Shown: positions 9,992 through 34,340 of the stretch, piece by piece
How the letters are laid out: each line of letters begins with the position of its first letter
Position numbering within the stretch: the stretch's first letter is position 1
NCBI GenBank assembly: GCA_017541025.1
Contig: JAFXZY010000023.1
Span: 1 to 41,331, forward strand
Direction of reading: 5' to 3'
Origin: Bacteroidaceae bacterium
GTDB lineage: Bacteria; Bacteroidota; Bacteroidia; Bacteroidales; Bacteroidaceae
DNA: 41,331 nt
Made by a program: the position numbers and the translations under genes
The notes under the pieces: model-generated
Told to the model about the DNA's origin: nothing
Seen by the model: only the letters and a program-made list of their open reading frames with translations
The model's database searches: none

Positions 9992-10020
9992 AGAAAACTT
10001 TGTTTAGGCAGAACATAAGA

Positions 10021-10062: not shown

Positions 10063-10098
10063 TAAGGGTAAAATGAAGACTATTTCGAGATTTACTTA

Positions 10099-10106
10099 TA
10101 TCTTTG
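10099..10106 (+). promoter_or_regulatory. Promoter for the two-component genes and possibly the whole cluster
   Basis: TATCTTTG is an exact -7 match, 33 bases before ATG 10139. No good -33 TTTG is seen. No other terminator is apparent until after 34340, so this could be the main promoter of the kinase, regulator and the cluster behind them. Confidence 0.6.
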
Positions 10107-10138
10107 TGCCATAAAAACGTGATTTAGGATTTTATTCC

Positions 10139-11143: not shown

Positions 11144-11144
11144 T

Positions 11145-11912: not shown

Positions 11913-11960
11913 ATAATTGAAAATTGAAAATTGAGCATTGAGCATTGATAATTGATAATT
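11913..11960. repeat. Dispersed A/T-rich repeat tract
   Basis: The gap consists of variants 'attgaaaattgaaaattgag', 'cattgagcattg' and 'ataattgataatt'. It is the same family of short tracts as at 6892-7035 and contains no evident promoter or terminator. A TTG at 11952 inside it is in frame with the next gene but is less likely as a start than ATG 11961. Confidence 0.8.
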
Positions 11961-12671
11961 ATGAATTTGAAAATAACTATATGTGCCTGTTCCTCGCGGA
12001 GTTTCATCGACCGCTCTGCTATAGCTAAAGTGGCAGCTACGGCACAGAATGCCGGGATGGAGGTGACGCTGGTGAGCGACCTTTGCGAGTTGTGCGAGAC
12101 GAAAGCGGAAGCTGTACACGAGATAGCCTCCACCACTATTGTCGCCTGTCATCCCAGAGCCGTAAAGTGTCTGATGGCCTTTGCCGGCGAAGAACATACA
12201 GAAAGCCTGAACCTGCGCAGCCGGTCGGCAGACGATGTGCTGAAAGACTTAGGTGTCCAGTCGGCCCCGCTCACTGCCGAAGATGTTGATGAATGGTTGC
12301 GCAAGATGGAAGATATGCCGCAGCGGTTGGGCGAAGATGCCTGGTATCCTGTTCTTGATAAGGATATGTGTGCCGAATGTGGCAAGTGTCTGGAATTCTG
12401 CCCCTTTGGCGTTTACGAGATGGTGGAAGACCGCATTCGGGTGGTTCATCCCCAGCATTGCAAGAACAACTGTCCTGCTTGTGCCCGCACCTGTCCCGCC
12501 ACTGCCATCATCTTTCCCAAGTACGACCGCAGCCCGATAAACGGAGGGGAGGAGAGGCAGGAGAGAGCAATCCAGCTGGATACAAAGACGCTGTATGCGC
12601 AGGCCCTTCGCGAGCATCTGGCAGCCAGAATACAGAAACCTATAACGATAAAACGACTCTCCGACAAATGA
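11961..12671 (+). CDS. HdrA-N-like ferredoxin with two [4Fe-4S] sites
   Basis: A 236-residue soluble protein. Residues 1-80 resemble the N-terminal domain of HdrA-type heterodisulfide reductases: an opening 'ITICACSSRSFIDRSAIAKV', then 'LCELCETKAEAVHEI' and 'TTIVACHPRAV'. Residues 137-178 carry two Fe-S sites: C137, C140, C143, C147 ('CAECGKCLEFCPFG') and C167, C171, C174, C178 ('CKNNCPACARTCPA'). The second has a three-residue first gap, so it is slightly unusual. It has no flavin domain, so it is an electron carrier rather than a full HdrA. Its stop overlaps the radical SAM start (ATGA), which makes it the likely electron donor for that enzyme. The HdrA link is by eye and tentative; the ferredoxin part is firm. 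Confidence 0.8.
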   Translation: MNLKITICACSSRSFIDRSAIAKVAATAQNAGMEVTLVSDLCELCETKAEAVHEIASTTIVACHPRAVKCLMAFAGEEHTESLNLRSRSADDVLKDLGVQSAPLTAEDVDEWLRKMEDMPQRLGEDAWYPVLDKDMCAECGKCLEFCPFGVYEMVEDRIRVVHPQHCKNNCPACARTCPATAIIFPKYDRSPINGGEERQERAIQLDTKTLYAQALREHLAARIQKPITIKRLSDK

Positions 12672-13882
12672 TAACAGCATATACCTCGTTACTGAAAACC
12701 GGTTGGCGTGTGTTCCGACAGACCCCCGTCCGCCTGCAGTGGAAGTTCATCAGGAATTTCTGCTGGCCCAATCTGTGGAATATGCACCGCTTTAAGCAGC
12801 GCCAGAAACGGGGTGAACCTTTCTTCCCGGCCTTTAACATGATTTCCGTCACCGAGACGTGCAACCTGGCATGCAGCGGCTGTTGGGTCAGCAAGGGCGG
12901 ACGAAAGAGTCTTACCATAGAGCAGTTAGACGGCATTATCCTCGAGAGTAAACGTCATGGGTCCCGATTCTTCGGAATATTGGGCGGAGAGCCTTTGATG
13001 TATAAGGGGCTCCTCGGTATCTTCCGGCGGCACCACGACTGTTATTTCCAGCTCTTTACCAATGGTACGCTGCTGACCGACGAGGTAGCCATGGAGCTAC
13101 GCAAAGCAGGTAATGTAACTCCGCTTATCAGTATAGAAGGACTGGAGGCAGAGAGCGACAGGCGGCGTCAGGCGAACGATGTCTATCAGCGTACCCTTCG
13201 TGGCGTCCGAGCCTGCCGGAAGGCCGGGCTCATCTTCGGAGCGGCTGCCAGTATCTGCCGCAACAACTACGACGAACTAGTGAGCCGTCAGCACATCGAA
13301 CGTGTGGCACGCGAGGGTGCTGCCTACCTTTGGTACTACATATACCGTCCGGTCGGTGCCGATGCTCATCCCGAGCAGGCTTTGAGTCAGGAGCAGATCC
13401 GCGGACTCCGTCAGTTCCTGGTAAGCGAGCGTATGGATGCCCCTCTGGTGCTTATAGATGTATATTGGGACGAAAAAGGCAGGGCCATGTGTCCGGGCGC
13501 CACCGGTATGAGTCATCATATCTCCCCGTCGGGAGCGCTGGAGTTCTGTCCGGTAATCCAACTGGCCACAGATTTCCTGAACGAAGATGCCAGCAATATG
13601 ACCGAGCTGTATGCCCATTCGCGGTTCCTTTCCGGTATGCGCCGGCAAGTGGCCCGTACAACCCGCGGCTGCATCGTTATGGACAATCCCGAGCGCATGG
13701 TTCAGCTTTTGCAGGAATACCCCTTGCAGGAGACCACCACGCGCGGCACAGCAATGAAAGAATACCAGAACATGTATAACATACCCAGTCACGATATGGA
13801 GCCGGACCTCATACCCGAGCAAAGCCGACCCTACCGATGGCTGAAAAGAAATTACTTCTTCGGATTTGGAGCATACGGATAG
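12668..13882 (+). CDS. Radical SAM enzyme with SPASM-like C-terminal cysteines
   Basis: A 404-residue enzyme that should cleave S-adenosylmethionine to a 5'-deoxyadenosyl radical. The cluster-binding motif is C65, C69, C72 in 'TETCNLACSGCW', followed by the SAM-contact 'GGEP' (106-109). Three further cysteines, C275 ('MCPGATG'), C294 ('EFCPV') and C335 ('TTRGCIV'), may hold an extra Fe-S cluster like a reduced SPASM domain. ATG 12668 overlaps the ferredoxin stop by four bases; longer in-frame versions run antisense-like through the ferredoxin gene and are discarded. About 60 basic, aromatic residues precede the barrel ('RVFRQTPVRLQWKFIRNFCW') and might touch the membrane. The next gene makes polyprenyl diphosphate, so the substrate may be an isoprenoid lipid, but nothing proves this. 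No small precursor peptide gene is seen. Confidence 0.9.
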   Translation: MITAYTSLLKTGWRVFRQTPVRLQWKFIRNFCWPNLWNMHRFKQRQKRGEPFFPAFNMISVTETCNLACSGCWVSKGGRKSLTIEQLDGIILESKRHGSRFFGILGGEPLMYKGLLGIFRRHHDCYFQLFTNGTLLTDEVAMELRKAGNVTPLISIEGLEAESDRRRQANDVYQRTLRGVRACRKAGLIFGAAASICRNNYDELVSRQHIERVAREGAAYLWYYIYRPVGADAHPEQALSQEQIRGLRQFLVSERMDAPLVLIDVYWDEKGRAMCPGATGMSHHISPSGALEFCPVIQLATDFLNEDASNMTELYAHSRFLSGMRRQVARTTRGCIVMDNPERMVQLLQEYPLQETTTRGTAMKEYQNMYNIPSHDMEPDLIPEQSRPYRWLKRNYFFGFGAYG

Positions 13883-13910
13883 ACACATACCACCAACGTT
13901 GGAGCAACGG

Positions 13911-15344
13911 ATGCATTTACGCAATGCCCTGAAAGCTTTTGTACAGACGCAGCACCTGTGTCCCCCTGTTTCGCTGAAACAGCTGGAGCAGTTGGCTGGT
14001 GCGTTTATCAGCGACCATCCGGACTGCAGCGAAATGCGTCCTTGGCTGATGGTCGAGATTCACAATCAGCTTTGGCTACCTATTGTGGCAGGCATACCCC
14101 GCGAGCGTCGCCTGCTGATGTTGCCTAAATGCCTCAGCCGGTACGGAGAGTGTCAGGCCGAATTCGACGAGTACGGATTGCTCTGTCACCATTGTGGCCG
14201 TTGCCCCATACCCCGTTTGCAGGATAAGGTGGAACAGCTGGGCGGTCTTAGCATTGTAGCAGAAGGATTCACGCAGGTCATCGAACTCATCGAGAGCAGA
14301 GTGATTGATGCTGTTATCGGTGTAAGCTGTCTCGACTCGCTGGAAAAGGCCTTCCCTCTGCTCGTCCGTCATGCGGTGCCGGGACTGGCCATTGCCCTGA
14401 ACGATTCGGGCTGTCGTGATACCCACGTAGATACAGACTATGTGGAGGAACTCTTTGCCATGCTGAGCGAAGAGGCCGGTCCCCAGCTGCTGGACCATGA
14501 TGCCATTCACGATCAGGTGAGCCGATGGTTCGCCCGTTCCGAGTTGGAACAGATTATGCACATTACGGAAGACCGAACCGGGCAGGTCTGTCTCGATTGG
14601 ATGAGTGGCGAGGGAAAACGCTGGCGTCCCTTCCTCCTTTCTGCAGTATGGCAGGCACTTACGGGCAGAACAGATATGCCCATAGATGTGCACCGTGCAG
14701 CCGTAGCCGTGGAATGTTTTCACAAAGCCTCGCTTATCCACGATGATGTCGAGGACCACGATGATACGCGTTACGGACAGCCCACCGTCAATGCCCTGTA
14801 CGGAGACGCCTTTGCCATCAATGCCGGCGACGCTCTGCTGGGGCAGGGCTACCATATTCTGGCAGAGACGGGCAATACGGAACTTATCCGTCTTATAGCC
14901 GATGCCCATGCCAAGTTATGCAGCGGGCAAGGCGAGGAACTGATGTGGGACAAGCGGCCCGTTACGATGGATTTTGTCCTGAACATCTCCCGTAACAAGA
15001 CGGTGCCAGCCTTCGAAGTGTCCCTGATGCTCGGCCTGAGTTGTGCAAAGGGCTTCACCCATCTCCGTCCCATGCTGAAAACCTATTCCGAGGCTTTGGG
15101 TATCGGCTATCAGCTGAAGGACGATTTGGAGGACTTTGTCCAGGACAACGAGCTGGCATGCCACCCATCGGCTGTGCTGGCGCTGAGAACCGAACATCCG
15201 ACATGGACCGACGAACAAGTGAAAACCCAGTTGCAGCAACTGGTTGACAAATACCATCAGCAGGCCCTCGATGCCCTTTCCGAGTTGGACGAACTGGAAC
15301 TGAAACGCCTTCTCTATCAGGTAACAGAAAAGATACTGGGATGA
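13911..15344 (+). CDS. DUF116-like domain fused to trans-polyprenyl diphosphate synthase
   Basis: A 477-residue two-domain protein. Residues 1-200 carry a cysteine pattern (C74, C81, C92, C95, C98; 'LCHHCGRCP') and the 'GLSIVAEGF' and 'VIGVSC' segments that I associate with DUF116, a family of unknown function with probable metal or Fe-S binding. Residues 210-477 are a trans-isoprenyl diphosphate synthase: 'GKRWRP' (235-240), first Asp-rich motif DDVED (278-282), second motif DDLED (404-408). The residues before the first motif are small (A273, S274), as in medium- and long-chain synthases rather than farnesyl synthases, so the product is probably C20 or longer. ATG 13911 is chosen, 28 bases after the radical SAM stop; a TTG at 13866 is a weaker alternative. 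It shares four bases with the next gene. Known synthases are usually free-standing, so the fusion is notable. Confidence 0.85.
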   Translation: MHLRNALKAFVQTQHLCPPVSLKQLEQLAGAFISDHPDCSEMRPWLMVEIHNQLWLPIVAGIPRERRLLMLPKCLSRYGECQAEFDEYGLLCHHCGRCPIPRLQDKVEQLGGLSIVAEGFTQVIELIESRVIDAVIGVSCLDSLEKAFPLLVRHAVPGLAIALNDSGCRDTHVDTDYVEELFAMLSEEAGPQLLDHDAIHDQVSRWFARSELEQIMHITEDRTGQVCLDWMSGEGKRWRPFLLSAVWQALTGRTDMPIDVHRAAVAVECFHKASLIHDDVEDHDDTRYGQPTVNALYGDAFAINAGDALLGQGYHILAETGNTELIRLIADAHAKLCSGQGEELMWDKRPVTMDFVLNISRNKTVPAFEVSLMLGLSCAKGFTHLRPMLKTYSEALGIGYQLKDDLEDFVQDNELACHPSAVLALRTEHPTWTDEQVKTQLQQLVDKYHQQALDALSELDELELKRLLYQVTEKILG

Positions 15345-16036
15345 AGACGCCATTATTATATAAGGTATATAAGTCCTTGCGAAGAGGATGGAAAAGCATG
15401 ACTCCTGATGCACAAAGAGCCATGCGGGCATTCGTGGCTTCGCAGAAAACGGCTCACGGTTACATGAATGCCGGAGGGTGCGAGGATGCTTACTACGGGC
15501 AGTTCGGTCATGTGCTCGAAGCCGTATTCTCTCCCTTCAGACTCCCTGCTACAGGGATTCACCTCTCTGTGCCCGAGAGCAGGAAGCAAGACACCGTATA
15601 TGGGCGTTTCTTCGCATTCCTGGAGAAGGAAATGAAGTTCGGTACAGCGCTTACACCGCTTGCAGATAAGTCCTTCTGCACGCTGCCCACTTCGCTTTCT
15701 GATTCCACCACCAATGCCGTCTGTTGTGTCCTGGCTATGCAACACCAGACGGGCATCCCGTCGGATGAAACGTATGTGAAATGGCTCCAGCAGCGGCAAG
15801 ACGAGAGTGGAGGTTTCCGTGCCAGTGAGGAGGCTCCTATACCAGATCTGCTCAGTACCGCTGTAGCATTGTTCACACTGCGCCTCTTAGGTGCAACTGT
15901 CCGGGATGCCATGCCGTTCGTCCAGGCCCACTGGTTGGAGTCCGGCGGTTTTGCCCCCACTTTGCTTGATGACTATAGCGATGTGGAGTACGTTTTTTAC
16001 GGATTACTTGCATTAGGAAGTATAAATGAAGAATGA
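15341..16036 (+). CDS. Small prenyltransferase-beta / terpene-cyclase-fold protein
   Basis: A 231-residue alpha-alpha barrel-type protein. It has two clear repeats of the squalene-cyclase/prenyltransferase-beta type: 'WLQQRQDESGGFRA' (about 150-163) and 'HWLESGGFAPT' (about 203-213), ending in 'DDYSDVEYVFYGLLAL', which recalls the Asp/Tyr zinc-site region of protein prenyltransferase beta subunits. It is much shorter than either family (usually over 330 residues) and has no DxDD motif. It overlaps the polyprenyl synthase stop (ATGA) and lies three bases before the full cyclase, so it may be a partner subunit or lipid-binding chaperone for that enzyme. Its last codons and the next start ('aaatgaagaatgaaaaatga') resemble the dispersed repeats. 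Confidence 0.7.
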   Translation: MKTPLLYKVYKSLRRGWKSMTPDAQRAMRAFVASQKTAHGYMNAGGCEDAYYGQFGHVLEAVFSPFRLPATGIHLSVPESRKQDTVYGRFFAFLEKEMKFGTALTPLADKSFCTLPTSLSDSTTNAVCCVLAMQHQTGIPSDETYVKWLQQRQDESGGFRASEEAPIPDLLSTAVALFTLRLLGATVRDAMPFVQAHWLESGGFAPTLLDDYSDVEYVFYGLLALGSINEE

Positions 16037-16039
16037 AAA

Positions 16040-17746
16040 ATGAAGAGTGAAGAACTGAAGGAAATGCAGACCGATGCTCTGAACCGACTCATGAAGAGTC
16101 GTTCCCAAGACGGTATGTGGAGAGGCTCGCTTTCGAGCAGTGCCATCTCTACAGCTGTCAGTGTGTTTGCCCTTCAGTGCATCGACTCAGACAGATATGC
16201 TGCACACATCCAGGCAGGCGTGAGATGGTTGCATCAGACCATGAAGGCCGATGGGTCGTGGGGCGACAGTGTGGAAAGTCCGTCCAACACAACGGCCACG
16301 CTGCTTACCTACGTATCGCTCTATGCTGTCGGGCAGGCTCCATCCGAGACCCGCCAATACCTCAGCAGACATTTGGGAGGCGCCAGCGAGGAGGCACTCA
16401 CACAGGGTGTGCTCCGTTACTACGGGCGCGACCTGACGTTCTCTGTCCCCATTCTTATGATGTGTGCACTGGCCGGAGTGGTCACGGACTGGAAGAAAAT
16501 CCCACCCTTCCCATTCGAACTGGCCACTTTGCCACAGCGCCTGTTCCGATATCTCAACCTTCCCGTTGTAAGTTATGCCATTCCTGCCCTCATTGCCATA
16601 GGTGTTTGTCAGATGCAAAAGAAGGGCGGACTCTTATCACCTATCCGCCGGCTCTTTGTTCCCAAGGCCATGCAAGTCTTGCTCCGTATGCAACCTGCCG
16701 ATGGCGGGTTCCTTGAAGCAGCTCCCCTAACGGCTTTTGTGAGTATGTGTCTGGCAGAATCTTCTTTCCGCGAACATGAGGTGACTCAGCGTTGTGCGAA
16801 ATTCCTCACAGATACTATCAGGGACGACGGTTCGTGGCCCATCGACACCAATCTGTCCGGTTGGCTCACCAGCCTCGCCGCAAAAGTCCTGCCGCCCGGC
16901 ACATCCCCTTTCGAGGAACTCTCTTTGCTCATCAGGAGAAATGCTACAACGACGATTCATCCCTTCACTGCTGCCCAGCCAGGCGGTTGGGGATGGAGCG
17001 ACCTTAGTGGCTCCGTGCCCGATGGGGATGATACCAGCGGAGCCCTGGTGGCGCTTCACCATCTAAGCCATGGAACACCCTGCGACGAGGTCCGGAATGG
17101 TCTGAAATGGTTGATGCAACTACAAAACAACGATGGTGGAATGCCAACCTTCTGCAGGGGATGGGGCAGACTTCCTTTTGACCGGAGCTCCCCAGACATC
17201 ACTGCACATGCTATCCTCGCCATGGGACTTTGGCTGCCCTCTCTCGATGGCAAGCTAAAATCAGACGTGCAGAAGAGTCTCGACCGTATGCTCACATGGA
17301 TGGGAAAGAGTGCAGAGGAAAGTAACGGATGGGTACCCCTGTGGTTTGGCGACCAGGATGCTGAGGACGAGAAAGCCCCCGTGTACGGAACTGCTACAGC
17401 TATCGACTATCTGATGTCTGCCCATCACCCCGTTGCCACAGAGCTGGCCGCCTCTCAAATCAACTTTCTCCTCATTTCCCAGAACGAAGACGGAGGGTGG
17501 GGCGGAAACAAAGGTGTGCCATCCAAGGTCACCTATACCTGTCGTGCCCTTGCTGCCCTGAAACATTTTCCCCACCTTTACGAAGAACCCAGACAACGGG
17601 GTTGGGACTATCTCTACCAGCGCTTTAAGGCCGGTACTCTCTACGAACGCGAACCCATCGGACTGTATTTCTCGCGACTCTGGTACTCCGAGGAACTCTA
17701 TAACGTATTATTCCTGTTGAACGCATTAAAAGGAACGACCGCATGA
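16040..17746 (+). CDS. Class II terpene cyclase (squalene-hopene cyclase-like)
   Basis: A 568-residue double alpha-barrel cyclase. The catalytic DxDD motif is intact as D328-G-D330-D331 in 'GSVPDGDDTSGAL', preceded by 'PGGWGW' just as in squalene-hopene cyclases, where the middle aspartate protonates the substrate. QW-type repeats occur along the chain: 'KADGSWGD' (69-76), 'QPADGGFLEA' (218-227), 'RDDGSWP' (261-267), 'LQNNDGGM' (about 366-373), 'QNEDGGWGGN' (about 480-489). It is shorter than squalene-hopene cyclases (about 630) and near the size of bacterial class II diterpene cyclases. No squalene synthase lies in the window, and a polyprenyl synthase is two genes upstream, so the substrate is perhaps a polyprenyl diphosphate or a prenylated compound. 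It overlaps the next gene by four bases. Fold and chemistry are well supported; the product is unknown. Confidence 0.88.
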   Translation: MKSEELKEMQTDALNRLMKSRSQDGMWRGSLSSSAISTAVSVFALQCIDSDRYAAHIQAGVRWLHQTMKADGSWGDSVESPSNTTATLLTYVSLYAVGQAPSETRQYLSRHLGGASEEALTQGVLRYYGRDLTFSVPILMMCALAGVVTDWKKIPPFPFELATLPQRLFRYLNLPVVSYAIPALIAIGVCQMQKKGGLLSPIRRLFVPKAMQVLLRMQPADGGFLEAAPLTAFVSMCLAESSFREHEVTQRCAKFLTDTIRDDGSWPIDTNLSGWLTSLAAKVLPPGTSPFEELSLLIRRNATTTIHPFTAAQPGGWGWSDLSGSVPDGDDTSGALVALHHLSHGTPCDEVRNGLKWLMQLQNNDGGMPTFCRGWGRLPFDRSSPDITAHAILAMGLWLPSLDGKLKSDVQKSLDRMLTWMGKSAEESNGWVPLWFGDQDAEDEKAPVYGTATAIDYLMSAHHPVATELAASQINFLLISQNEDGGWGGNKGVPSKVTYTCRALAALKHFPHLYEEPRQRGWDYLYQRFKAGTLYEREPIGLYFSRLWYSEELYNVLFLLNALKGTTA

Positions 17747-19176
17747 ACGACAAAAAGATTACATGGATTACAATAGGTGTCACCGCCTTCTACCTGTGTC
17801 TGCTTATCTTCTGGCACTTTTACGACCCCAGTAGCCATTTCACCGAGTCGCAGCCAGGAGCCGACCATCGTCCTGCAGGGCATGGCCGTAAGGTGGATGA
17901 TGTGCTGATAGGTGAATTCTTCATGCAAGACTCCTCTCTCCTCTCTCCACTCTCCACTCTCAAAGGGGAATGGCCTTGTTTTCGTGGTGCCCGTTTTGAC
18001 AACCAGGCTACTTTGTCACCAACCGCGAAATGGCTTGAGGGAGATTTTCAGGAGATGTGGTCGGTAGAGACTGGCGAAGGGCATGCTGCTCCCGTTATCT
18101 CTGAAGGTCGTGTGTATGTGCTCGATTATGACGAACAACTGAGTTCCGATGCTTTGCGCTGCCTGGATCTTCAAACGGGCAAACAGTTATGGCGTCGCTG
18201 GTATCGTGTACCCATGAAACGAAACCACGGGTTCTCCCGTACCATTCCGGCTGTAACAGGAGAACTGGTAGTTACCATAGGACCGGAAGGTCATGTAATG
18301 TGCTGCGATAAAATAACCGGCCAGATGCGTTGGAGTATTGATATGAAAAAGCGTTTCGGTACAGAAATCCCGTTCTGGTACACAGGGCAGTGTCCGCTCA
18401 TATACAAGGATATGCTCGTCTTGGCTCCGGCAGGTAAAGACACGCTAATGTTGGGACTCGATGTGAAAACAGGTCAGACACTGTGGGCAACCCCCAACTC
18501 GGTACAATTTAAGATGTCCCACTCCTCCGTCATTCCCATGACCCTGGACGGGGTACCCACTTTCGTATATATCGGTGTCGGAGGCGTGTGTGGCGTTTCT
18601 GCCGAGGCCGGCACCCAAGGCCGTCTGTTATGGAGTGCCCAGGAGTGGCAACCTTCGGTAGTAGCTCCTTCTCCCCTTCAGATATCGCAGAACCAAGTAT
18701 TCCTTGTGGCAGGATATGGGGCAGGTGGAGCATTGCTTCAGGTAAATAAGCAGGGAACTTCCTGGCACGCCGTTATAAAAGATAACTATAAGGCAAGCGA
18801 AGGAATGTCCAGCGAACAACAGACACCCATCAACTATCAGGGTACACTTATAACCATTCTGCCCAAAGACGGAGGCGGCATGCGTGAGCGTCTGGCCATG
18901 TATTCCCCTACCGACATACACCATCCCATCTGGACGTCAGCTGCCGATGAGCGCTTCGGGTTGGGGCCTTACTTAGTTATCGGGGACCGTCTTTTTGCTC
19001 TTAAAGAAGACGGGGAACTGTATGCATATCAGCTGAATGCCAAATCGATGAAACTGCTTCGAAAGCAGAAAATAATAGACGAGGGCGTAGATGCATGGGG
19101 ACCTATGGCATACGCAGACGGGATGCTGATAGTGAGGGATGCAAAGACAATAAAATGCATTAAGGTAGCAAAATAA
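17743..19176 (+). CDS. PQQ-like beta-propeller, single-helix anchored (propeller 1)
   Basis: A 477-residue protein. Residues 7-27 form one membrane helix, so the propeller should face the periplasm. It begins with 'WPCFRGARFDNQ' (77-88), the 'W..FRG' start seen in PQQ-like propellers, then blades marked by 'LDLQTGKQLWRRW', 'DKITGQMRWSI', 'DVKTGQTLWATP'. The length and lack of dehydrogenase motifs fit a non-enzymatic BamB-like or structural propeller; I see no PQQ synthesis genes. A stretch at 64-74 ('SSLLSPLSTLK') is encoded by a dispersed repeat at 17931-17965. It overlaps the cyclase gene by four bases, which ties it tightly to the terpenoid module. It may present or bind the lipid or a redox partner at the membrane surface. 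Confidence 0.85.
   Translation: MNDKKITWITIGVTAFYLCLLIFWHFYDPSSHFTESQPGADHRPAGHGRKVDDVLIGEFFMQDSSLLSPLSTLKGEWPCFRGARFDNQATLSPTAKWLEGDFQEMWSVETGEGHAAPVISEGRVYVLDYDEQLSSDALRCLDLQTGKQLWRRWYRVPMKRNHGFSRTIPAVTGELVVTIGPEGHVMCCDKITGQMRWSIDMKKRFGTEIPFWYTGQCPLIYKDMLVLAPAGKDTLMLGLDVKTGQTLWATPNSVQFKMSHSSVIPMTLDGVPTFVYIGVGGVCGVSAEAGTQGRLLWSAQEWQPSVVAPSPLQISQNQVFLVAGYGAGGALLQVNKQGTSWHAVIKDNYKASEGMSSEQQTPINYQGTLITILPKDGGGMRERLAMYSPTDIHHPIWTSAADERFGLGPYLVIGDRLFALKEDGELYAYQLNAKSMKLLRKQKIIDEGVDAWGPMAYADGMLIVRDAKTIKCIKVAK
17931..17965. repeat. Dispersed repeat inside propeller 1 gene
   Basis: The tract 'ctctcctctctccactctcc' and its neighbours are copies of the 'aactctcaac'-like dispersed unit read in frame as a Ser/Leu-rich linker between the anchor helix and the propeller. 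Confidence 0.65.
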
Positions 19177-19195
19177 GGAATATAAAATTAGATAT

Positions 19196-20200: not shown

Positions 20201-20217
20201 TTAACGGTTAAAGGAAA

Positions 20218-23787: not shown

Positions 23788-23837
23788 GTATCCAATAATC
23801 CCTCCTTGCGGGGACGATGAATGTTAAATGGTGAATT

Positions 23838-26863: not shown

Positions 26864-27938
26864 ATACCTGACAGGTGCTCAGGATAGAGACTGGACCATC
26901 TACCGTGGTTCCCCTTCGCTGTGCGGCTATACCGGTTGTGCTTTGCCGGACGCCCCTCAACTGCTATGGAGCGTAGAGACCAGGACGCGAACGGTTGCGG
27001 CACCTGTTGTGTATAACGGGTGGGTCTATACCCTCGACCGCAAGGGTTGTCTGCGGAGATTCTCGATGGAGGGTGATTCTGCTTCGGTCTATGATTTCCA
27101 GACCACAATAGAGGCGTCGTTCGTTGCGGGTGATTCTATGTTGTATGCGGGCAGAACAGACGGTTATGTGAATGCCTACGATATCAATAAGCAGCAGGTG
27201 GTGTGGGAGTTCGAGACGCTGGGGCAGATTTCGGGCTCGCCCAATCTGGTGGACGGCCAGTTGCTGGTGGGCAGCTACGACGGCAGCATGTACACGCTGG
27301 ACAGCAAGTCGGGCCGTAAGACGGGCCAGTTCGAGACGGGCTATTACATCAACGGTACTGCGGCTGTGTGGCAGGGCTACATGATGTTCGGCGGGTGCGA
27401 CAAGTGGGTGCGCGTGGTGGACATCGCTACCGGAACGGTAACGGACTCGGTGGCGCTGGACAGCTACGTTCCTGCCTCGCCAGCCATTCTGGACGGTGTG
27501 GCGTGTGCCTGCGACTACAACGGAAACGTGTATGAAATGAAGCTGGATGGCGGCAAGATATCAAACCTGCGGAAACTGGTTGCAGCAACCGGGGACAACG
27601 CGGAGCAGGACGGTGGAGTGGTGTCTATGCCCACACTGACCCGTACCGATGTCTTTATCCTTTCCGGCGACCGCCACATCTGTTGCATCGGGCGCTCTTC
27701 CGGTCAGGTGCGATGGAAGAAGATGCTGCGCGGAGTGACGGGCGAATGCTCGCCGCTGGTGGCTAAGGACAGAGTGCTTGTCTGTACCAAGGACGGGCAT
27801 GTGTCCATACTCGGTGCAAGGGATGGAACGGAACTGTGGCATTACGAGACGGGCGAACCCATCGTGGCCTCGCCTGCCGTCATCCGGGATTACTTTTTCG
27901 TGTTAACTGCCAGAGGAACATTACTGTGCTTTAAATAA
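26796..27938 (+). CDS. PQQ-like beta-propeller lipoprotein (propeller 3)
   Basis: A 380-residue protein. Residues 1-19 are a signal peptide 'MKRLLTYVPLVLFFCASC', with a cysteine at the end consistent with a loose Bacteroidota lipobox, though the -3 residue is not ideal. The mature part opens with 'DWTIYRGSPSLCGYTG', the same W..YRG start as the other propellers, followed by blades such as 'YDINKQQVVWEFE', 'LDSKSGRKTGQFE', 'IGRSSGQVRWKK' and 'LGARDGTELWHYE'. It should be a lipoprotein on the outer face of the inner membrane or in the outer membrane. The gene begins 68 bases inside the NuoG-like gene, so its translation is likely coupled to the electron module. ATG 26796 is preferred to TTG 26793. 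Confidence 0.83.
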   Translation: MKRLLTYVPLVLFFCASCTQINEYLTGAQDRDWTIYRGSPSLCGYTGCALPDAPQLLWSVETRTRTVAAPVVYNGWVYTLDRKGCLRRFSMEGDSASVYDFQTTIEASFVAGDSMLYAGRTDGYVNAYDINKQQVVWEFETLGQISGSPNLVDGQLLVGSYDGSMYTLDSKSGRKTGQFETGYYINGTAAVWQGYMMFGGCDKWVRVVDIATGTVTDSVALDSYVPASPAILDGVACACDYNGNVYEMKLDGGKISNLRKLVAATGDNAEQDGGVVSMPTLTRTDVFILSGDRHICCIGRSSGQVRWKKMLRGVTGECSPLVAKDRVLVCTKDGHVSILGARDGTELWHYETGEPIVASPAVIRDYFFVLTARGTLLCFK

Positions 27939-27942
27939 AGAA

Positions 27943-28686
27943 ATGATGATAATAGAACTGGAGAATATTACCAAACGATTTGCCGACGGGCAGCGCTCGC
28001 TGACCGTTCTGGACGGGCTCACGTTGCAAGTGGAAGAGGGCGATTTCGTTGCCGTCACCGGAGAGTCGGGGGCAGGAAAGACCACGCTGCTGAATATCCT
28101 CGGTACACTGATAGAGCCCGACGAGGGACGGTATCTGATTAAAGATGAGCCCTGCCCTGATTCCTCCCTCCTTCGGGGGGAGACAGAGGGGGGCCGTGAA
28201 TGGACAGAACGCCTCTGCCGTTTACGCAATAAGGAGATAGGCTTTGTATATCAGGACCACCGTCTGCTGCCTCAGTTCACGGTATGGCAGAATATCCTGC
28301 TTCCGACCCTTGCCACAAAGACAGCCTCTACGGAAGAGGAACAGCAACGGGCACGGGATTTGCTGGATTTCATGGGAATCCTTCCGCTGAAGGAGAGTCC
28401 TGTTACCCAGCTTTCGGGTGGAGAACAGACGCGCGTGGCCATTTGCCGTGCCCTGATAAACCAGCCTTCCATCCTGTTGGCTGACGAACCGACGGGACAG
28501 CTGGATGCTGCAAATGCGCAGACTGTTGTTTCTCTTTTCCAACAGGTGAATACCCAACTGCATACTACCGTCATCATGGTTACCCACTCTGCCGAGGTGG
28601 CAAAGGCTGCCCGCAAGACTTACCGGTTAGAGAATGGAAAACTCTCAACTCTCAACTCTAAACTCTCCTTACATGACATCACATAG
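27943..28686 (+). CDS. ABC transporter ATPase of the MacB/LolD type
   Basis: A 247-residue ATPase with Walker A 'GESGAGKTT' (about 40-48), Q-loop '[11 protein letters not shown]', signature 'LSGGEQ', Walker B 'ILLADEPTG' and switch 'MVTHS'. MacB/LolD ATPases power FtsX-type permeases that extract lipoproteins or push substrates to the envelope by mechanical transmission. Two odd insertions come from dispersed repeats: residues about 69-86 ('[18 protein letters not shown]', from 28148-28200) and the C-terminal '[13 protein letters not shown]' (from 28640-28668). The gene ends inside the permease start region, overlapping by 14 bases. It begins four bases after propeller 3. Confidence 0.92.
28148..28200. 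repeat. G/C-rich palindromic repeat inside the ATPase gene
   Basis: 'cctccctccttcggggggag' and flanking bases form a short hairpin like the C-rich/G-rich palindromic repeats scattered in Bacteroidota genomes. It is read in frame between the Walker A and Q-loop regions. Confidence 0.65.
28640..28668. repeat. Dispersed repeat at the ATPase-permease junction
   Basis: Four copies of 'aactctc'/'aactctaa' sit directly before ATG 28673 and encode the ATPase C-terminal tail. They occupy the place where the permease ribosome-binding site would be. Confidence 0.75.
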
Positions 28687-31600
28687 CCAGAAGTACTACC
28701 GACGTTTCTATCGCCTCGTCGTCTTAGCTGTCATCCTGATGATAGCTGTGCTGACTGGTAGTCTTTTGTTGGGCGACTCTGTACGGGGCACATTGGTACA
28801 GCGTGTAGGTGAACGGTTGGGAAAGACCGAGACCGTTATCACCAGCGGAACGGGATTCATGGACGAGGCGCTGTTAGACCAACCTTTGCTGAATCATGCC
28901 CGGGGCTATCTGCTGATGAACGGATATGTGTCGGTTGGCGAGAAACTGCTTCCTGTCTATGTGTGGGGCACAGATGCCGATACGCTTCAGGCAGGCGAGG
29001 CTCTGGTGAACGAACCTCTCGGCTCTAAACTCTCATCTCTAAACTCTCAACTAATCCTCCATCTCCCTTCCCATAATATGGTACCGTCGGGAAGTCTTTT
29101 TGTTACGAAAAGCTATGCCACCCAGATGCGCCTGCATGTGGTGGGAGTGAAGAGTGTGGAAGATGGCGGCAATATGCTACTACGGAACGAGCAGACCCTG
29201 CCGCTGAATGTCTTCGTGAACCGTCGGCATTTAGCTGAGACGATGGAACTGGAGGGTAAAATAAACTTGGTTCTCTCCGATGATATGATAAGTGACGGAC
29301 AGTTTGCTGCTGTCTGGAATCCTGAACTGTCGGGCATACACATTACGGACTCCTCGCTTACGTACGACAGAGTATTCCTTCCCCATACTGTTGTGGACAA
29401 ACTGACCCCTCCCTATCCCTCCCGAGGGAAGGGGAAATATGTACAGACCTATTTCGCTTATTTGGTGAACGAGATCTCAACTCTCAACTCTCAACTATCA
29501 ACTATCAACTATCCCTTTGTGACTGCGGTTAGCGAATGGCAGGGAGAACCACTCGACGGACAGGAGATGATTCTGTCCGATTATGCCGCCAAGCGGCTTC
29601 ATGTCCTTGAGGGTGACTCGGTAAGCATGAGTTATTTCATTACAGAGAACCTGAAAAACCTCGATACCAGGGAACAGACTTTCGTGGTAAAACGGATCGT
29701 CCCACTCGCCTCTTTCAGGAACGACAGTCTGCTTGTAGCCGATTTCCCCGGTCTGACCCATGTGGAAAAATGCACTGACTGGGATAGCGACCTTCCCATC
29801 GACATGAATAGGATAGAGAAGGAAGACGAGGACTATTGGTATGCCTACCGGCAGACTCCGAAGGCTCTTGTTTCGTACGAGGCTGTAGCCGGTGACTGGA
29901 GTAATGCTTTCGGTTGTGCTACAGCCATGCGTTTCACGTCCCGTCCCGATGTCAGCCTGTTGCCCGGCGATGCCGAGGTGCAGCTGGTTCACCCTCGTGC
30001 CCAAGGGCTGCAGGGAGCTACAGGCGGAGTGGATTTTGCCGGACTGTTCCTCTCGTTGGGTTTCTTCATTATTCTTTCTTCTGTTCTGCTGATGAAGAAC
30101 CCGTTGGTAGAGATGTTCAATCTACGTAGCGGAGAACTCCAGTTATATCGTCAGTTGGGTTTCGGGGACAGGAGAATCAAACGTATGCTCTTCCGCGAGG
30201 TTTTCGGTATCATATTCCTTGCATCCCCCTTAGGTGTAATTGCCGGCTTAGTTTATTCCGGCTTAACGCTATGGCTGTTGGGTAATGTGTGGAGTGGAGC
30301 TACCCATACAGAAGGCTTCTCGTTGCACATACGGCCACTGACACTTCTTGCCGGTTGGCTGGTGGGATTGCTCGTCTGTACTTTTGTCCTGTGGCGTGTG
30401 ATACGGTTAAGGGTTAATGGTTCAGGGTTCAAGATGTCTGATGTAAGATGTAAGATGGAAGATGGAAGAGCACACTTACGGTTCGGGGTTAATGGTTCTG
30501 GAAGCGGTAGCAAATTGCCACTTTATTCTTCATTCTTCATTTTCCTCCTAACCCTCGGGTTGATAGTATTCAATTTCGTCAGCCTTCATAGTATTGCGCT
30601 TTTCGTCATCTGCGGCCTGTTGTGGATTCTGACATGGGGCTTGTTCCTCCGCAACTCTCTCCAAAAGATTCAAAACACCCCTCTGTTCTCTCGTCACCTC
30701 CTGACACGATTATCCATCCGCGCCTTCTCGCGTCAGCATCTTCTGGCATATTGGACGCTTGCCTTGGGCGTATTCGCCGTATTTGCTGTCGGACTGAACC
30801 GCCCTGATTTCAGTCATGCTGACCAGGCCTCGGGAGGGTATCAATACTATGTGGATAGCCGAGTGCCCATACATTACAACCTGAATAATCCCGAAGTACG
30901 GAAAAAGCTTTCGCTCCAGTCCCTGCCGGACAGCACGGTTTTCCTCAGTTTCCTTCGTCACACGCAGGACGAGGCCAGTTGCTTGAATCTCAATCAGGTC
31001 AGCACGCCCACAGTGTTAGGGGTTGACCTTAAGGAGATGGCATCCTTTGGCCTTAACAGTCAACAGTCTCCCCTCTCTCTCGGAGAGGGGCTGGGGGAGA
31101 GGCTCTCAATTTATATCGATGAGGAAGCCCTCCTGTGGAGCCTCAAGAAATCTGTGGGCGACACACTCTTTTACCAGAACGACAGGGGCGAGACGGTGCC
31201 TGTGGTGATAGCCGGTACTTATCCTACAGGTATTTCCCATGGGAATGCAATCATGCCGGTCGAAGATTTCCTGCAGCTGTGGCCTAAGGAAGTAGGTATG
31301 GAAGTGCTGCTCATGAAGTCTTCCCGTCCTGACGAGGCGGCAGAGTTGCTTTCAATAGCCATGAGTGAATACGGTCTTACTATCCAGACCACAGAGGAAC
31401 GCATCCGAATGTTCTTCGAGGTAACAGAGACCTATCTCATCATATTCCTGACCTTAGGCGGATTGGGCCTGTTGCTGGGTATCTTCAGCCTTATGATAAT
31501 CGTTCGTAAGAATCTTACAGCCCAGGCCGATACCATCCGGCAATACCATGCCATGGGCTTCTCCGGTCGCCTGATAAGACAACTGATGTTGCGGGAGAAC

Positions 31601-31786
31601 CTCCTTGTCCCCCTATATGCTGTTCTTGCCGGTGCCACAGGTTCGGTCATCAGTATCAGTGCAAATGTCAGAGGAGCCGGCCTCAATACGCTGCTGCTGG
31701 CCCTTGTCGTTCTGGCTGCTATCTGCCTGTTATTATATTACGGTATTAAAATTATGATTAATCAATCCATTAACAATCCTGAATAA
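28673..31786 (+). CDS. FtsX-family ABC permease with ten membrane helices
   Basis: A 1037-residue inner-membrane protein. One helix near the N-terminus ('RLVVLAVILMIAVLTGSLLL') is followed by a large periplasmic domain, then six helices around 450-700, a second periplasmic domain, and three C-terminal helices ('YLIIFLTLGGLGLLLGIFSL', 'LYAVLAGATGSVISI', 'LLLALVVLAAICLLLYYGI'). This is the ten-helix FtsX duplicate arrangement. With the ATPase it could extract or export a lipid or a lipoprotein; beside a terpenoid module a lipid cargo is attractive but unproven. Five repeat tracts are read through in frame (residues about 117-127, 245-254, 268-281, 578-625, 798-813), mostly in periplasmic loops. 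ATG 28673 is preferred to the ATG at 28634, which would translate the repeat tract. Propeller 4 starts one base after its stop. Confidence 0.88.
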   Translation: MTSHSQKYYRRFYRLVVLAVILMIAVLTGSLLLGDSVRGTLVQRVGERLGKTETVITSGTGFMDEALLDQPLLNHARGYLLMNGYVSVGEKLLPVYVWGTDADTLQAGEALVNEPLGSKLSSLNSQLILHLPSHNMVPSGSLFVTKSYATQMRLHVVGVKSVEDGGNMLLRNEQTLPLNVFVNRRHLAETMELEGKINLVLSDDMISDGQFAAVWNPELSGIHITDSSLTYDRVFLPHTVVDKLTPPYPSRGKGKYVQTYFAYLVNEISTLNSQLSTINYPFVTAVSEWQGEPLDGQEMILSDYAAKRLHVLEGDSVSMSYFITENLKNLDTREQTFVVKRIVPLASFRNDSLLVADFPGLTHVEKCTDWDSDLPIDMNRIEKEDEDYWYAYRQTPKALVSYEAVAGDWSNAFGCATAMRFTSRPDVSLLPGDAEVQLVHPRAQGLQGATGGVDFAGLFLSLGFFIILSSVLLMKNPLVEMFNLRSGELQLYRQLGFGDRRIKRMLFREVFGIIFLASPLGVIAGLVYSGLTLWLLGNVWSGATHTEGFSLHIRPLTLLAGWLVGLLVCTFVLWRVIRLRVNGSGFKMSDVRCKMEDGRAHLRFGVNGSGSGSKLPLYSSFFIFLLTLGLIVFNFVSLHSIALFVICGLLWILTWGLFLRNSLQKIQNTPLFSRHLLTRLSIRAFSRQHLLAYWTLALGVFAVFAVGLNRPDFSHADQASGGYQYYVDSRVPIHYNLNNPEVRKKLSLQSLPDSTVFLSFLRHTQDEASCLNLNQVSTPTVLGVDLKEMASFGLNSQQSPLSLGEGLGERLSIYIDEEALLWSLKKSVGDTLFYQNDRGETVPVVIAGTYPTGISHGNAIMPVEDFLQLWPKEVGMEVLLMKSSRPDEAAELLSIAMSEYGLTIQTTEERIRMFFEVTETYLIIFLTLGGLGLLLGIFSLMIIVRKNLTAQADTIRQYHAMGFSGRLIRQLMLRENLLVPLYAVLAGATGSVISISANVRGAGLNTLLLALVVLAAICLLLYYGIKIMINQSINNPE
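29021..29053. repeat. In-frame repeat tract in the permease (first)
   Basis: 'ctctaaactctcatctctaa' and the next 'actctcaact' are copies of the dispersed unit, read as 'SKLSSLNSQL' in the first periplasmic domain. Confidence 0.75.
29406..29434. repeat. C-rich/G-rich palindrome in the permease (second)
   Basis: 'TCCCTC' pairs with 'GAGGGA' around CC in a C-rich/G-rich palindrome read as 'PPYPSRGKGK'. It belongs to the same class as 28148-28200. Confidence 0.65.
29475..29513. repeat. In-frame repeat tract in the permease (third)
   Basis: Five units of 'tcaactc'/'tcaacta' are read as 'STLNSQLSTINY' in the first periplasmic domain. Confidence 0.8.
30404..30545. repeat. In-frame composite repeat block in the permease (fourth)
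   Basis: Two copies of 'gggttaatggttc' flank 'gatgtaagatgtaagatgg' units, and 'attcttcattcttcatttt' follows. The block encodes a polar stretch ('NGSGFKMSDVRCKMEDGRA') between two helix groups, unlike the rest of the protein in composition. Confidence 0.75.
31066..31110. repeat. Palindromic repeat in the permease (fifth)
   Basis: CCCCTCTC (31070-31077) pairs with GAGAGGGG (31083-31090), followed by 'ctgggggagaggctctc'. This is the classic form of a C-rich palindromic repeat found many times in Bacteroidota genomes. It is read as 'SPLSLGEGLGERLS'. Confidence 0.8.
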
Positions 31787-31787
31787 T

Positions 31788-33044
31788 ATGAAACGTACTC
31801 TTTTTACACTTATCGCTTTTTCCTTTTTCGCTTTCCCCGAGCTACAAGCCCGGAAGGTTACTTTCAGGGGTGCGAACCATTGCGGAATCTTTCCCAACGA
31901 GAAAAATCTCCTGAAACAATGGCCTGCCGAAGGCCCCGAGAAACTGTGGGTGGCAGATGATGCTGGAAAGGGTAACTCCAGTGCATTGGTATGCGACGGA
32001 TTTATCTATACTGCAGGTCTTACCGAGGACGAGCAGAATGAACAGCTGACCTGCTACAAACTGGACGGAACAAAGGCCTGGCAAGTCATCTATGGAAATG
32101 CATGGACGAAGTCTTATCGGGAAACCCGTTCTACTCCCATAATCGACGACAACCGTCTTTATATGGCAAGCAATACGGGCGAACTGGTCTGTCTCAATCG
32201 CGAAGACGGCAAGATTCTATGGTCCGTTAACTACTGGAAAAAATATGGACTCTCGCCCAACGACCAGGGCATCTGCGAGCATCCCTTAATCGATGGCGGT
32301 AAGATTATTGTAACAACCAGTGGTAAGGAAATCTGTATGGCGGCCTTTGATAAACTCACAGGCGAGGTGATTTGGGAGACCAAAGGCTTCGGAGACAAAG
32401 CCACCTATTGCCCTCCAAGTATCATAGAATGGAAAGGACACCGTCAGATCATAGGTGGAACAGAGGAACATATTTTTGGTGTAGATCCCCAAACAGGAAA
32501 AATGGTTTGGAACGACAGCCAGTGGATACCCGCGCCGGAAGCTAAGAAATGGCTGAATGCCATGATTAACAGCCCTGTTTTCTACAAGGGAAAGCTGCTG
32601 GTTAGCCTGGGCGACGGTCATGGTTGTACAATGTACCGGATGGCCGATGACCTCTCTTCAGCCACATTTCTTTGGAAGAATAAGGAAATCGACTTCTACA
32701 TGGGAGGAATGGTAGAGATTGGCGGAGTGGTATATGGAAGCACAGGCGACAAGCATAAATGGGCTGCCCTAGACATAGAGACGGGTAACGTCCTCTACCA
32801 CCAGCCTTGGGGCGGCGGAAAAGGGCGCGGCTCCCTCATCATGGCCGATGATATGTTCTATATGTTCGACGAACGACGCGGTACCATGGGGCTTGCCCGT
32901 ATCAATCCCGAGAAACTCGATGTGGTAAGCGAATTCCGTATTACCGACGGATCGGGTGCCTTCTTTTCTCATCCGACTATTTTCGACGGAGTTCTGTACG
33001 TACGACACGGAACTGCACTTATTGCCTATAACATCAAAAAATAA
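31788..33044 (+). CDS. Secreted PQQ-like beta-propeller (propeller 4)
   Basis: A 418-residue protein with a signal peptide (residues 1-22, 'MKRTLFTLIAFSFFAFPELQA') and no anchor, so it should be periplasmic. The mature part begins 'VTFRGANHCGIFPNEKNLLK', a W-less variant of the W..FRG start, and contains blades such as 'YKLDGTKAWQVIY', 'LNREDGKILWSVN' and 'FDKLTGEVIWETK'. It is a paralogue of the next gene, sharing 'WPAEGPEKLW'/'WPAEGPKLVF', 'DAGKG', 'DERRG' and a closely similar ending ('LYVRHGTALIAYNIKK'). The pair probably arose by tandem duplication. It starts one base after the ABC permease stop. Confidence 0.87.
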   Translation: MKRTLFTLIAFSFFAFPELQARKVTFRGANHCGIFPNEKNLLKQWPAEGPEKLWVADDAGKGNSSALVCDGFIYTAGLTEDEQNEQLTCYKLDGTKAWQVIYGNAWTKSYRETRSTPIIDDNRLYMASNTGELVCLNREDGKILWSVNYWKKYGLSPNDQGICEHPLIDGGKIIVTTSGKEICMAAFDKLTGEVIWETKGFGDKATYCPPSIIEWKGHRQIIGGTEEHIFGVDPQTGKMVWNDSQWIPAPEAKKWLNAMINSPVFYKGKLLVSLGDGHGCTMYRMADDLSSATFLWKNKEIDFYMGGMVEIGGVVYGSTGDKHKWAALDIETGNVLYHQPWGGGKGRGSLIMADDMFYMFDERRGTMGLARINPEKLDVVSEFRITDGSGAFFSHPTIFDGVLYVRHGTALIAYNIKK

Positions 33045-33074
33045 TATTATTCACCAATTAAAAACAAAACACGT

Positions 33075-34340
33075 ATGAAGAAGTTTTTTACTGTACTCCT
33101 CGGTGTATGCATATACACGGGAGCTTTTGCACAGGTTACGCCCTACGGTTGGCGTGGTCCTCAACACAATGGTTTCTATCCCGATAAGGGACTCCTGAAG
33201 GAATGGCCCGCCGAAGGACCCAAGTTGGTTTTCGAAACCAGCGATGCCGGCAAGGGCTATTCGTCACCGGTGGTGGTAGGCGATAAGATTTATCTTACAG
33301 GTATGAACGAGGATGAAACCCAGGAAGTACTGAACTGCTACAATCTGAAGGGAGAAAAGCTTTACACAGTTTCCTACGGTCAGCCTTGGAAGCAGTCTTA
33401 TCCGGACACACGTACCACACCCGCTATTATGGACGGTAAGGTCTATGTCATCAGCGGTATGGGCGAAATCGTGTGCCTCAATGCTGCTGATGGCGCCATC
33501 CTGTGGAAAGTAGACGGCGGCACAAAGTACGAACGTAAGACTGGCAACTGGGGTACTTCAGAGTGTCCGTTGGTTTACGACGATAAAGTAATCTACACCC
33601 CATGCGGTGACCAGACAACAATGGTAGCACTCAATCGCAACACCGGAGAGGAAATCTGGAAGACACGTCCTCTTAATGAGAAATCGGCCTATGTATCTCC
33701 CATTTTGATTGAGTATAAGGGTAAGCGACAGATTATTGGATCTACATCTAAGAATGTCATTGGCGTTAATCCTGACAATGGTGAGATTATGTGGACCTTC
33801 GACAACTGGGGACCCAAATACTCAGGCAAGGAAAGTCGCTGGGATAATATCGCGCCCAACTCTGCCCTCTACAAGGATGGTAAGATTTTCTTCTGTCACG
33901 GCTATGACATCAATGGTTTCCAACTTAAGTTGGCCGACGACCTTAAGAGTGTAGAAGTAACCTGGCGCACTGAGACCCTTGACACACACCACGGAGGCTA
34001 CGTCCTGGTAAATGGAAAGATCTATGGTTCCAACTGGATTAACAACAACGATGGTGCCTGGTGCTGCCTCGATTGGGAGACTGGTAAGACCGATTATGAG
34101 GAGAAATGGTCGGAGGGAGCCGGCAAGGGTTCCATCATCGCAGCCGACAATAAGCTGTTCATCTACGACGAGCGTCGCGGATTTGTCGGCATGGTAAATC
34201 CAACGCCTGAGAAGTTCGATGTTGTAAGCAAGTTCCGCGTAGCGAAGGGTAGTGGTCCGTACTGGTCGCACATGGCTATTGATAAAGGCATCCTTTACCT
34301 TCGTCACGGCGAATACTTTGCTGCCTATAAGATAAAGTAA
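33075..34340 (+). CDS. Secreted PQQ-like beta-propeller (propeller 5)
   Basis: A 421-residue periplasmic protein with a signal peptide (1-20, 'MKKFFTVLLGVCIYTGAFAQ'). It opens with 'YGWRGPQHNGFYPDKGLLKE', and its blades include 'YNLKGEKLYTVSY', 'LNAADGAILWKVD' and 'LNRNTGEEIWKTR'. It is the tandem paralogue of propeller 4 and ends 'GILYLRHGEYFAAYKIK'. It is the last plus-strand gene of the cluster. The 30-base gap before it carries no -7 box that I can see. Codon use is a little more biased to common codons than in neighbours, which hints at higher expression. Confidence 0.87.
   Translation: MKKFFTVLLGVCIYTGAFAQVTPYGWRGPQHNGFYPDKGLLKEWPAEGPKLVFETSDAGKGYSSPVVVGDKIYLTGMNEDETQEVLNCYNLKGEKLYTVSYGQPWKQSYPDTRTTPAIMDGKVYVISGMGEIVCLNAADGAILWKVDGGTKYERKTGNWGTSECPLVYDDKVIYTPCGDQTTMVALNRNTGEEIWKTRPLNEKSAYVSPILIEYKGKRQIIGSTSKNVIGVNPDNGEIMWTFDNWGPKYSGKESRWDNIAPNSALYKDGKIFFCHGYDINGFQLKLADDLKSVEVTWRTETLDTHHGGYVLVNGKIYGSNWINNNDGAWCCLDWETGKTDYEEKWSEGAGKGSIIAADNKLFIYDERRGFVGMVNPTPEKFDVVSKFRVAKGSGPYWSHMAIDKGILYLRHGEYFAAYKIK

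Follow-up and report, generated by a model that had tools for sequence, protein, structure and literature searches.

A Bfu-type redox operon adjoining a putative cyclized-isoprenoid gene module in a Bacteroidaceae bacterium: separable modules with recurrent linkage

We examined a run of 17 genes, labeled A to Q here, on contig JAFXZY010000023.1 of a Bacteroidaceae bacterium (GenBank assembly GCA_017541025.1, a metagenome-assembled genome, or MAG, of 3.28 Mb in 95 contigs and 83.85% complete). ‘The window’ denotes the whole stretch of that contig that was analyzed, 41,331 nucleotides in length. All 17 genes lie on the plus strand between positions 11961 and 34340, with consecutive spacing of −68 to +50 bp, and may be co-transcribed; the run is bounded downstream by minus-strand genes, the first of which occupies 34421–34909. 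An earlier note, made from the sequence of the window, had described this tightly spaced run as containing a prenyl synthase, a cyclase, a radical SAM enzyme, ferredoxins, a NapH-like protein, six propellers and an ABC exporter. That layout was confirmed, and domain matches bore out the listed content. Families were assigned by Pfam and NCBIfam scans, PDB matches and alignments with homologs, and cross-genome comparison divided the run into two modules, a terpenoid module (A–E) and a redox module (F–Q). The individual genes are as follows.

A, 11961–12671, plus strand: ferredoxin with an N-terminal cysteine domain followed by two [4Fe-4S] motifs (Fer4 matches).
B, 12668–13882, plus strand: radical SAM enzyme with a cysteine-containing C-terminal region (PF04055, 4.2e-20).
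C, 13866–15344, plus strand: fusion of DUF116 and an all-trans polyprenyl diphosphate synthase (PF01976, 3.3e-27; PF00348, 3.2e-41).
D, 15341–16036, plus strand: alpha-alpha toroid protein related to cyclases and RabGGTase beta (PF00432, 3e-5, just below cut-off).
E, 16040–17746, plus strand: class II (DxDD) terpene cyclase of the squalene-hopene type (PF13243, 1.2e-24; PF13249, 3.7e-20).
F, 17743–19176, plus strand: BamB-like propeller, predicted to be membrane-anchored by an N-terminal transmembrane segment; the marker of the redox module (PF13360, 2.8e-21).
G, 19196–20200, plus strand: NHL-type protein, predicted to be exported (NHL-domain PDB matches with a profile).
H, 20218–20787, plus strand: polyferredoxin with an RR (Tat-type) signal.
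I, 20780–22042, plus strand: NapH/NosR-like membrane Fe-S protein (TIGR02163, 6e-14, below cut-off).
J, 22039–23787, plus strand: propeller with N-terminal transmembrane segments (PF13360, 2.5e-33).
K, 23838–26249, plus strand: NuoE-NuoF fusion of the Bfu type (PF01257, PF01512, PF10589).
L, 26249–26863, plus strand: BfuA/NuoG-N-like Fe-S protein, short form.
M, 26796–27938, plus strand: propeller, predicted to be exported (PF13360, 2e-26).
N, 27943–28686, plus strand: ABC ATPase of the LolD/MacB class (PF00005, 2.2e-33; TIGR02211 best, below cut-off).
O, 28634–31786, plus strand: FtsX-type permease (PF02687, 1e-8).
P, 31788–33044, plus strand: propeller, predicted to be exported (PF13360, 5e-29).
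Q, 33075–34340, plus strand: propeller, predicted to be exported (PF13360, 8.9e-22).

Within the redox module, K carries a thioredoxin-like 2Fe-2S domain and a C-terminal 2×[4Fe-4S] region in addition to its NuoE and NuoF domains, and its best PDB matches are HydB, StnB and Nfn-Bfu proteins. It has the domains of a BfuBC core together with the His/Cys ligands of the B2 cluster: the histidine and three cysteines of that cluster are found in the window and in all 28 orthologs shown (those, out of 68 loci queried, with the motif found in the fetched DNA). A NuoEF/NuoG-type module, which the earlier note had listed as NADH-oxidizing, is present, with its type now corrected from that of complex I to the electron-bifurcating Bfu/HydBC type; a complex-I remnant was rejected, since the best matches are bifurcating HydB-type proteins with extra clusters. 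The two Fe-S proteins encoded upstream of K are strongly conserved, with 17 cysteines of H and 15 of I invariant in all 13 aligned rows from Bacteroidota and the Planctomycetota–Verrucomicrobiota–Chlamydiota (PVC) group. TatC was present in 18/18 genomes searched. With K and L, these proteins would give the redox half the components for electron transfer linking NADH/ferredoxin with the periplasm.

The six propellers comprise five of the PQQ/BamB type (F, J, M, P and Q) and one of the NHL type (G). The fold of F is nearest to that of BamB, with tetrathionate hydrolase among its next neighbors. G has no Pfam match at 0.01 and a ScyF/NHL NCBIfam match below cut-off, and carries a vicinal cysteine pair in a GCCNP...TSEKG-type motif that is invariant in 15/15 rows; the protein is only ∼220–240 amino acids long in four PVC genomes, which still keep that motif. 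A lipobox-like, non-canonical cysteine near residue 18 suggests that M is possibly a lipoprotein. We rejected assignment of the five PQQ/BamB-type proteins as PQQ enzymes, as they score 29–53 bits against the 480 of the PQQ alcohol dehydrogenase model TIGR03075.

For the exporter, YbbP heads the 13 PDB matches of O (1.7e-8), with LolE- and BceB-class permeases close behind. Several redox operons also carry a GT4 glycosyltransferase between M and N (L147, L149, L154 and L103; labels beginning with L or G are our own). These two observations, the first of which places N/O nearest to a lipid-extracting exporter, could be taken to mean that an envelope polymer of glyco- or lipid type is assembled or exported by the propellers and the exporter, with the isoprenoid as its lipid carrier or anchor and the redox part adjusting that carrier. 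We regard this as very unlikely, because the glycosyltransferase is missing from the operon in the window and polymer export leaves unexplained the number of Fe-S clusters in H, I, K and L.

Motifs are likewise conserved in the terpenoid module. C passes the PF00348 cut-off easily (141.6 vs 27 bits), its structure model resembles prenyl synthases, and its two Asp-rich motifs are invariant in 8/8 rows except for the third Asp of the second motif; whole-model structure searches, which hardly test residues before 169, gave no lead on the DUF116 fold. E contains a PDGDDT motif whose DxDD is invariant in 9/9 rows and aligns on the DVDD of 1gsz, while D is shortened in the window. The CxxxCxxC motif of B is invariant in 7/7 aligned rows. 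The best PDB matches of A include HdrA subunits, by way of its Fer4 part, and its N-terminal cysteines are kept in 8/8 aligned rows; we take this N-terminus to be similar to HdrA-N.

From its sequence, this half of the run should make a cyclized polyprenyl product. Squalene is an unlikely substrate of E, because the SQS/PSY family (PF00494) was not found in 18/25 cyclase genomes, including the MAG that contains the window (84% complete). Hopanoid synthesis was rejected on that same ground and because E falls below the hopene-cyclase cut-off (65 vs 431.1 bits).

Some loci depart from this gene set. A different radical SAM protein takes the place of B in L072 (5164–6744), L091, L095, L105, L107, L110 and L186, some of them Phycisphaerae; the replacement is nearest to TIGR04013 (B12-binding/radical SAM), below cut-off. 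GcvH-like genes (of the lipoyl-carrier type) lie beside terpenoid genes in several PVC genomes (L101:8359–8811, L104:4770–5264, L188 and L189), and one lies beside the redox operon in L185. Several cyclase-only loci share a GcvH-A-E-C layout (Gimesia L101, L100, L176, L178, L179 and L193). The GcvH-like and HdrA-like parts near the terpenoid half, together with the tetrathionate hydrolase among the fold neighbors of F, weakly hint at sulfur chemistry.

Scanning of GTDB contigs with a cyclase profile confirmed at least 583 loci, of which 80 were kept. Among the matches listed, cyclase loci belong to Bacteroidota, Planctomycetota, Lentisphaerota, Kiritimatiellota and Verrucomicrobiota, and the closest cyclases to Bacteroidaceae/Bacteroidales MAGs from the rumen and other herbivore guts; named strains among the loci are Parabacteroides sp. 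ZJ-118, Carboxylicivirga linearis, Oligosphaera ethanolica DSM 24202 and Marinifilum breve.

The two modules adjoin in at least five gene orders across four phyla. A–E is followed by F–L in the window, in Oligosphaera L074 and in L077, L081, L083 and L187. The order is swapped on one strand in Marinifilum sp. N1E240 (Q-Q-F-G-H-I-J-K-L-M-N, then P/Q, then A–E, with no O seen) and in Labilibaculum sp. K2S, where the operon includes O and the stretch ends in C (E adjoins C in L093). L103 has F-G-H-I, then A–E, then M, a glycosyltransferase and N-O-Q, and L186 has F–L and a glycosyltransferase, followed by A, another radical SAM gene, E and C; the modules are convergent in L104 and divergent in L068. 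Among loci with 2 kb of room, 34/44 from Bacteroidota and 5/23 others have F on the strand of E and at most 4.5 kb downstream of it. At least two redox genes occur in the fetched stretch of 45/98 cyclase loci (36/52 from Bacteroidota and 9/46 from PVC, with phylum labels taken from database names, the tree and the phylum searched), which is an undercount: with ∼10 kb covered on each side, L093, L096 and L102 have redox-gene counts of 0 or 1, and longer stretches from the genomes of L093 and L096 revealed that a complete redox operon adjoins their cyclase genes.

In a tree of E (made by a quick method, leaving out the over-long rows L072, L089, L092 and L105), the window-type Bacteroidales loci have as their sister group (SH-aLRT 91) a clade that comprises Oligosphaera, Victivallales and Planctomycetes bacterium syqfu and has the same E-then-F order. 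In a tree of F (one identical row left out; root and direction not settled), the F proteins of those same two sets are far apart, and those of cyclase-less genomes fall between them on well-supported branches. On that tree 9 changes of the linked state are required, at least 8 of them forced by supported branches. These topologies suggest either that the modules were joined several times or that an old linkage was repeatedly broken and rebuilt; both speak for a functional tie. We conclude that the coupling of the modules is real but facultative.

Separate occurrence of the modules is common. In a sample of 247 genomes of the order Bacteroidales (E sought with one cyclase sequence at 1e-10, F with a profile at 1e-50), E was found in 11 and F in 44; all 11 genomes with E also had F, and 33 of the 44 with F had no E. 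A second search of those 33, this time with the cyclase profile (threshold 1e-5), matched 0/33 and had no positive control of its own (the same profile matched 46/199 genomes of the planctomycete phylum). In the cyclase-less genomes of the order the redox operon stands alone, exporter included where the contig reaches. The reverse was found in 199 genomes of the phylum to which Planctomycetes bacterium syqfu belongs (thresholds 1e-50 for E and 1e-100 for F): 46 had E, 19 had F, 13 had both, and 33 of the 46 with E had no F. Co-occurrence of E and F nevertheless exceeds chance (Fisher p 1.8e-9 in the order and 1.1e-5 in the planctomycete phylum), in tests that take the genomes, many of them MAGs, as independent with no correction for kinship. 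The earlier note had named separate occurrence without conserved linkage as a pattern that would speak against its reading, and only half of that pattern is seen: the modules are apart in many genomes, but linkage recurs in several forms.

We considered whether DUF116 might reveal an overlooked terpenoid pathway in the cyclase-less genomes and rejected this idea: a DUF116 gene is present in just 5/33 of them, and in the fetched stretches none of these has a homolog of A, B, D or E next to it. In one genome with no cyclase found, a DUF116 gene that stands by itself is located ∼2.4 kb beyond the point where a redox operon ends in GT4-N-O (L203:272–9147).

The ability of each module to occur alone would also be expected if the two were anaerobic modules, each useful independently and with unrelated products, that travel together in mobile or selected islands, through shared regulation or niche. 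Consistent with this, five of 27 cyclase genomes contain only weak F paralogs (all 27 match the F profile at 1e-30 and 22 at 1e-100; the matches in G256, G268, G269, G270 and G273 are weaker and probably paralogs), and of 25 PVC loci with 8 kb or more of sequence to either side, 17 show no linkage in that span. Tight spacing is kept, however, in different gene orders on separate branches, and E and F co-occur at the whole-genome level in two samples, so that we consider a neighborhood with no functional tie to be quite unlikely.

Separate occurrence bears equally on a scheme in which the redox module acts as an electron supply, with the Bfu unit and ferredoxins mainly feeding low-potential electrons to the radical SAM and DUF116 proteins and, via H and I, to periplasmic maturation, while the propellers serve as scaffolds or chaperones. 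Radical SAM enzymes require low-potential electrons, and NosR-type proteins, which support a periplasmic enzyme, offer a model for such a role. The BamB-like fold of F and a match of I to the NosR model (below cut-off) fit this scheme, as does the arrangement of N/O with propellers, which is reminiscent of the propeller/ABC layout of nos operons. Against it, the redox operon lacks a cyclase partner in three quarters of its Bacteroidales genomes (33/44), and A–E do not need the redox operon, because they occur elsewhere without it. We judge this an unlikely, if credible, alternative.

Our tentative preference, held with somewhat less than even confidence, is for a Bfu-driven transmembrane electron conduit that serves periplasmic propellers and is often joined to a dedicated cyclized-isoprenoid pathway, the product of which serves it as an auxiliary lipid or cofactor. 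K and L, as a soluble Bfu-type enzyme, would exchange electrons with NAD(H) and ferredoxin and pass mid-potential electrons to the NapH-like I in the membrane; I would hand them to Tat-exported H, and H to propellers that are periplasmic or membrane-anchored (G with its vicinal cysteines, F, J, M, P and Q). The YbbP-like N/O might serve the redox machine by extracting a hydrophobic molecule from the inner membrane. In the terpenoid module, C would build a polyprenyl diphosphate, which E, with D, would cyclize by DxDD protonation, and B, A and DUF116 could then modify the isoprenoid by radical SAM and Fe-S chemistry. Within the envelope, the product would be an auxiliary lipid or cofactor of the redox module, and not an obligate carrier.

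Several observations weigh against this conduit. None of the propellers has a demonstrated redox cofactor, and I and N miss the curated cut-offs of the NapH and LolD models. At the fifth B2 position of K the window has Ala, where the 28 orthologs have T or C (24), S (3) or V (1), and L, with 204 amino acids compared to 320–323 in four relatives, is ∼115 residues shorter and has lost a Cys-rich insert; this loss may mean an altered partner for the Bfu unit of the window. The co-occurrence statistics carry the kinship caveat given above, and the functional link between the modules may be loose, because each is often found alone.

The same separability limits the role of the isoprenoid. It cannot be an obligate carrier, because each module stands alone elsewhere, nor can it be the dedicated cargo of the exporter, a role that was considered and rejected: in genomes that lack the cyclase (L141, L143, L147, L149 and L203), N/O still accompanies the redox half, so the exporter need not export the isoprenoid. 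The earlier note's NADH-driven electron flow to the envelope thus retains its redox half, which has the parts of a conduit; the proposed tie to the isoprenoid as carrier, cofactor or cargo was not supported in the form given there, as the modules stand apart in many genomes. A bolder version, in which Bacteroidota and PVC bacteria make a novel non-quinone redox lipid (a cyclized polyprenyl with a radical SAM-derived, possibly sulfur-bearing head group) that shuttles electrons between the bifurcating NADH/ferredoxin enzyme and the periplasmic polyferredoxin and propellers, strikes us as improbable; if it were true, redox-only lineages would fill that position with a different carrier, for instance an ordinary quinone.

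Genes upstream of the run include candidate regulators and accessories.

1009–5802: 1597-amino acid repeat protein, secreted-looking.
8052–8885: MIP gene; recurs beside the cluster in other genomes (9/80 cyclase loci).
8894–9991, plus strand: CobW/HypB/UreG-type GTPase (PF02492, 2.6e-23).
10139–11143, plus strand: sensor histidine kinase (PF06580, 2.5e-22); same position in 11/80 cyclase loci.
11145–11912, plus strand: LytTR response regulator (PF04397, 6.1e-16; PF00072, 4.2e-15); in 12/80 cyclase loci.

The kinase and LytTR genes, separated by 1 bp, lie directly upstream of A (gap 48 bp) and are likely regulators. The CobW gene adjoins the cluster in 9/80 cyclase loci, with homologs beside A in L081, L104, L188 and L189, and is a possible accessory of the terpenoid module. 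The unit may begin earlier than 11961 and take in upstream genes. Promoter and terminator scans around the cluster gave results at about shuffle level, except for 9900–12300 (6 promoter-like sites vs 2.5 expected), and an Rfam scan returned nothing at gathering score. Degenerate 7-bp tandem repeats of the TCAACTC/GAGTTGA kind occur at 6892–7029, 11907–11960, 24963–25016, 28640–28667, 29023–29052 and 29477–29513, between genes and also within K, N and O in frame-keeping multiples (inserted residues, for example, ELRVESLELRGES).

These results supply a Bfu-type enzyme lacking an assigned third substrate with a concrete set of partners, and point to a widespread cyclized-isoprenoid pathway (the at least 583 cyclase loci) to which the literature searched assigns no product. 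Because the modules can be found singly, together but unlinked within one genome, or fused in different orders, the contribution of the isoprenoid to the electron machine can be addressed directly by comparison.

Among known systems, the closest to K and L is the Bfu family (HydABC, StnABC and Nfn-Bfu), with which they share NuoE, NuoF, the thioredoxin-like 2Fe-2S domain, the C-terminal 2×[4Fe-4S] region and the B2 residues. They differ from it in that NuoE is fused to NuoF in K, that the cluster contains no hydrogenase or other known third-substrate subunit, and that their partners are a NapH-like protein, a polyferredoxin and propeller proteins. The paper on the Bfu family does not mention PQQ, propeller, squalene or NapH, and leaves 17–18 clades without assignment (PMC9304861). 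H and I have in common with NapGH and NosR a polyferredoxin with an RR signal beside a membrane protein that carries CxxxCP and 4Fe-4S motifs, but fall short of the cut-offs (I, 52.1 vs 213.05 bits for TIGR02163; H, 30.2 vs 269 for NapG, PRK09476), and domain scans found no Nap, Nos or cytochrome genes among A–Q. YbbAP-TesA is reportedly a type VII ABC system that acts as a lipid-extracting exporter; YbbP is the best PDB match of O, which is longer (1050 vs 804 amino acids), and domain scans found no TesA-like gene among A–Q. E is homologous to squalene-hopene cyclase and keeps its DxDD, but in contrast to the squalene-hopene pathway it scores below the cut-off (65 vs 431.1 bits) and has a DUF116-prenyl synthase and a radical SAM protein of its own as linked partners.

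A literature search, outside which most subscription papers fell, returned no description of the cluster or of a matching pathway, in agreement with the earlier note, to which no described pathway of such composition was known. A DUF116-polyprenyl synthase fusion of the same kind as C has already been noted in Pirellula staleyi (Psta_0175), in a passage that does not describe the gene cluster and that proposes an electron-transfer role for DUF116 from archaeal contexts (PMC5898192). The DUF116-prenyl synthase fusion was thus already known; new here is the attachment of a terpenoid pathway to what would be a Bfu-linked system of electron transfer in the envelope.

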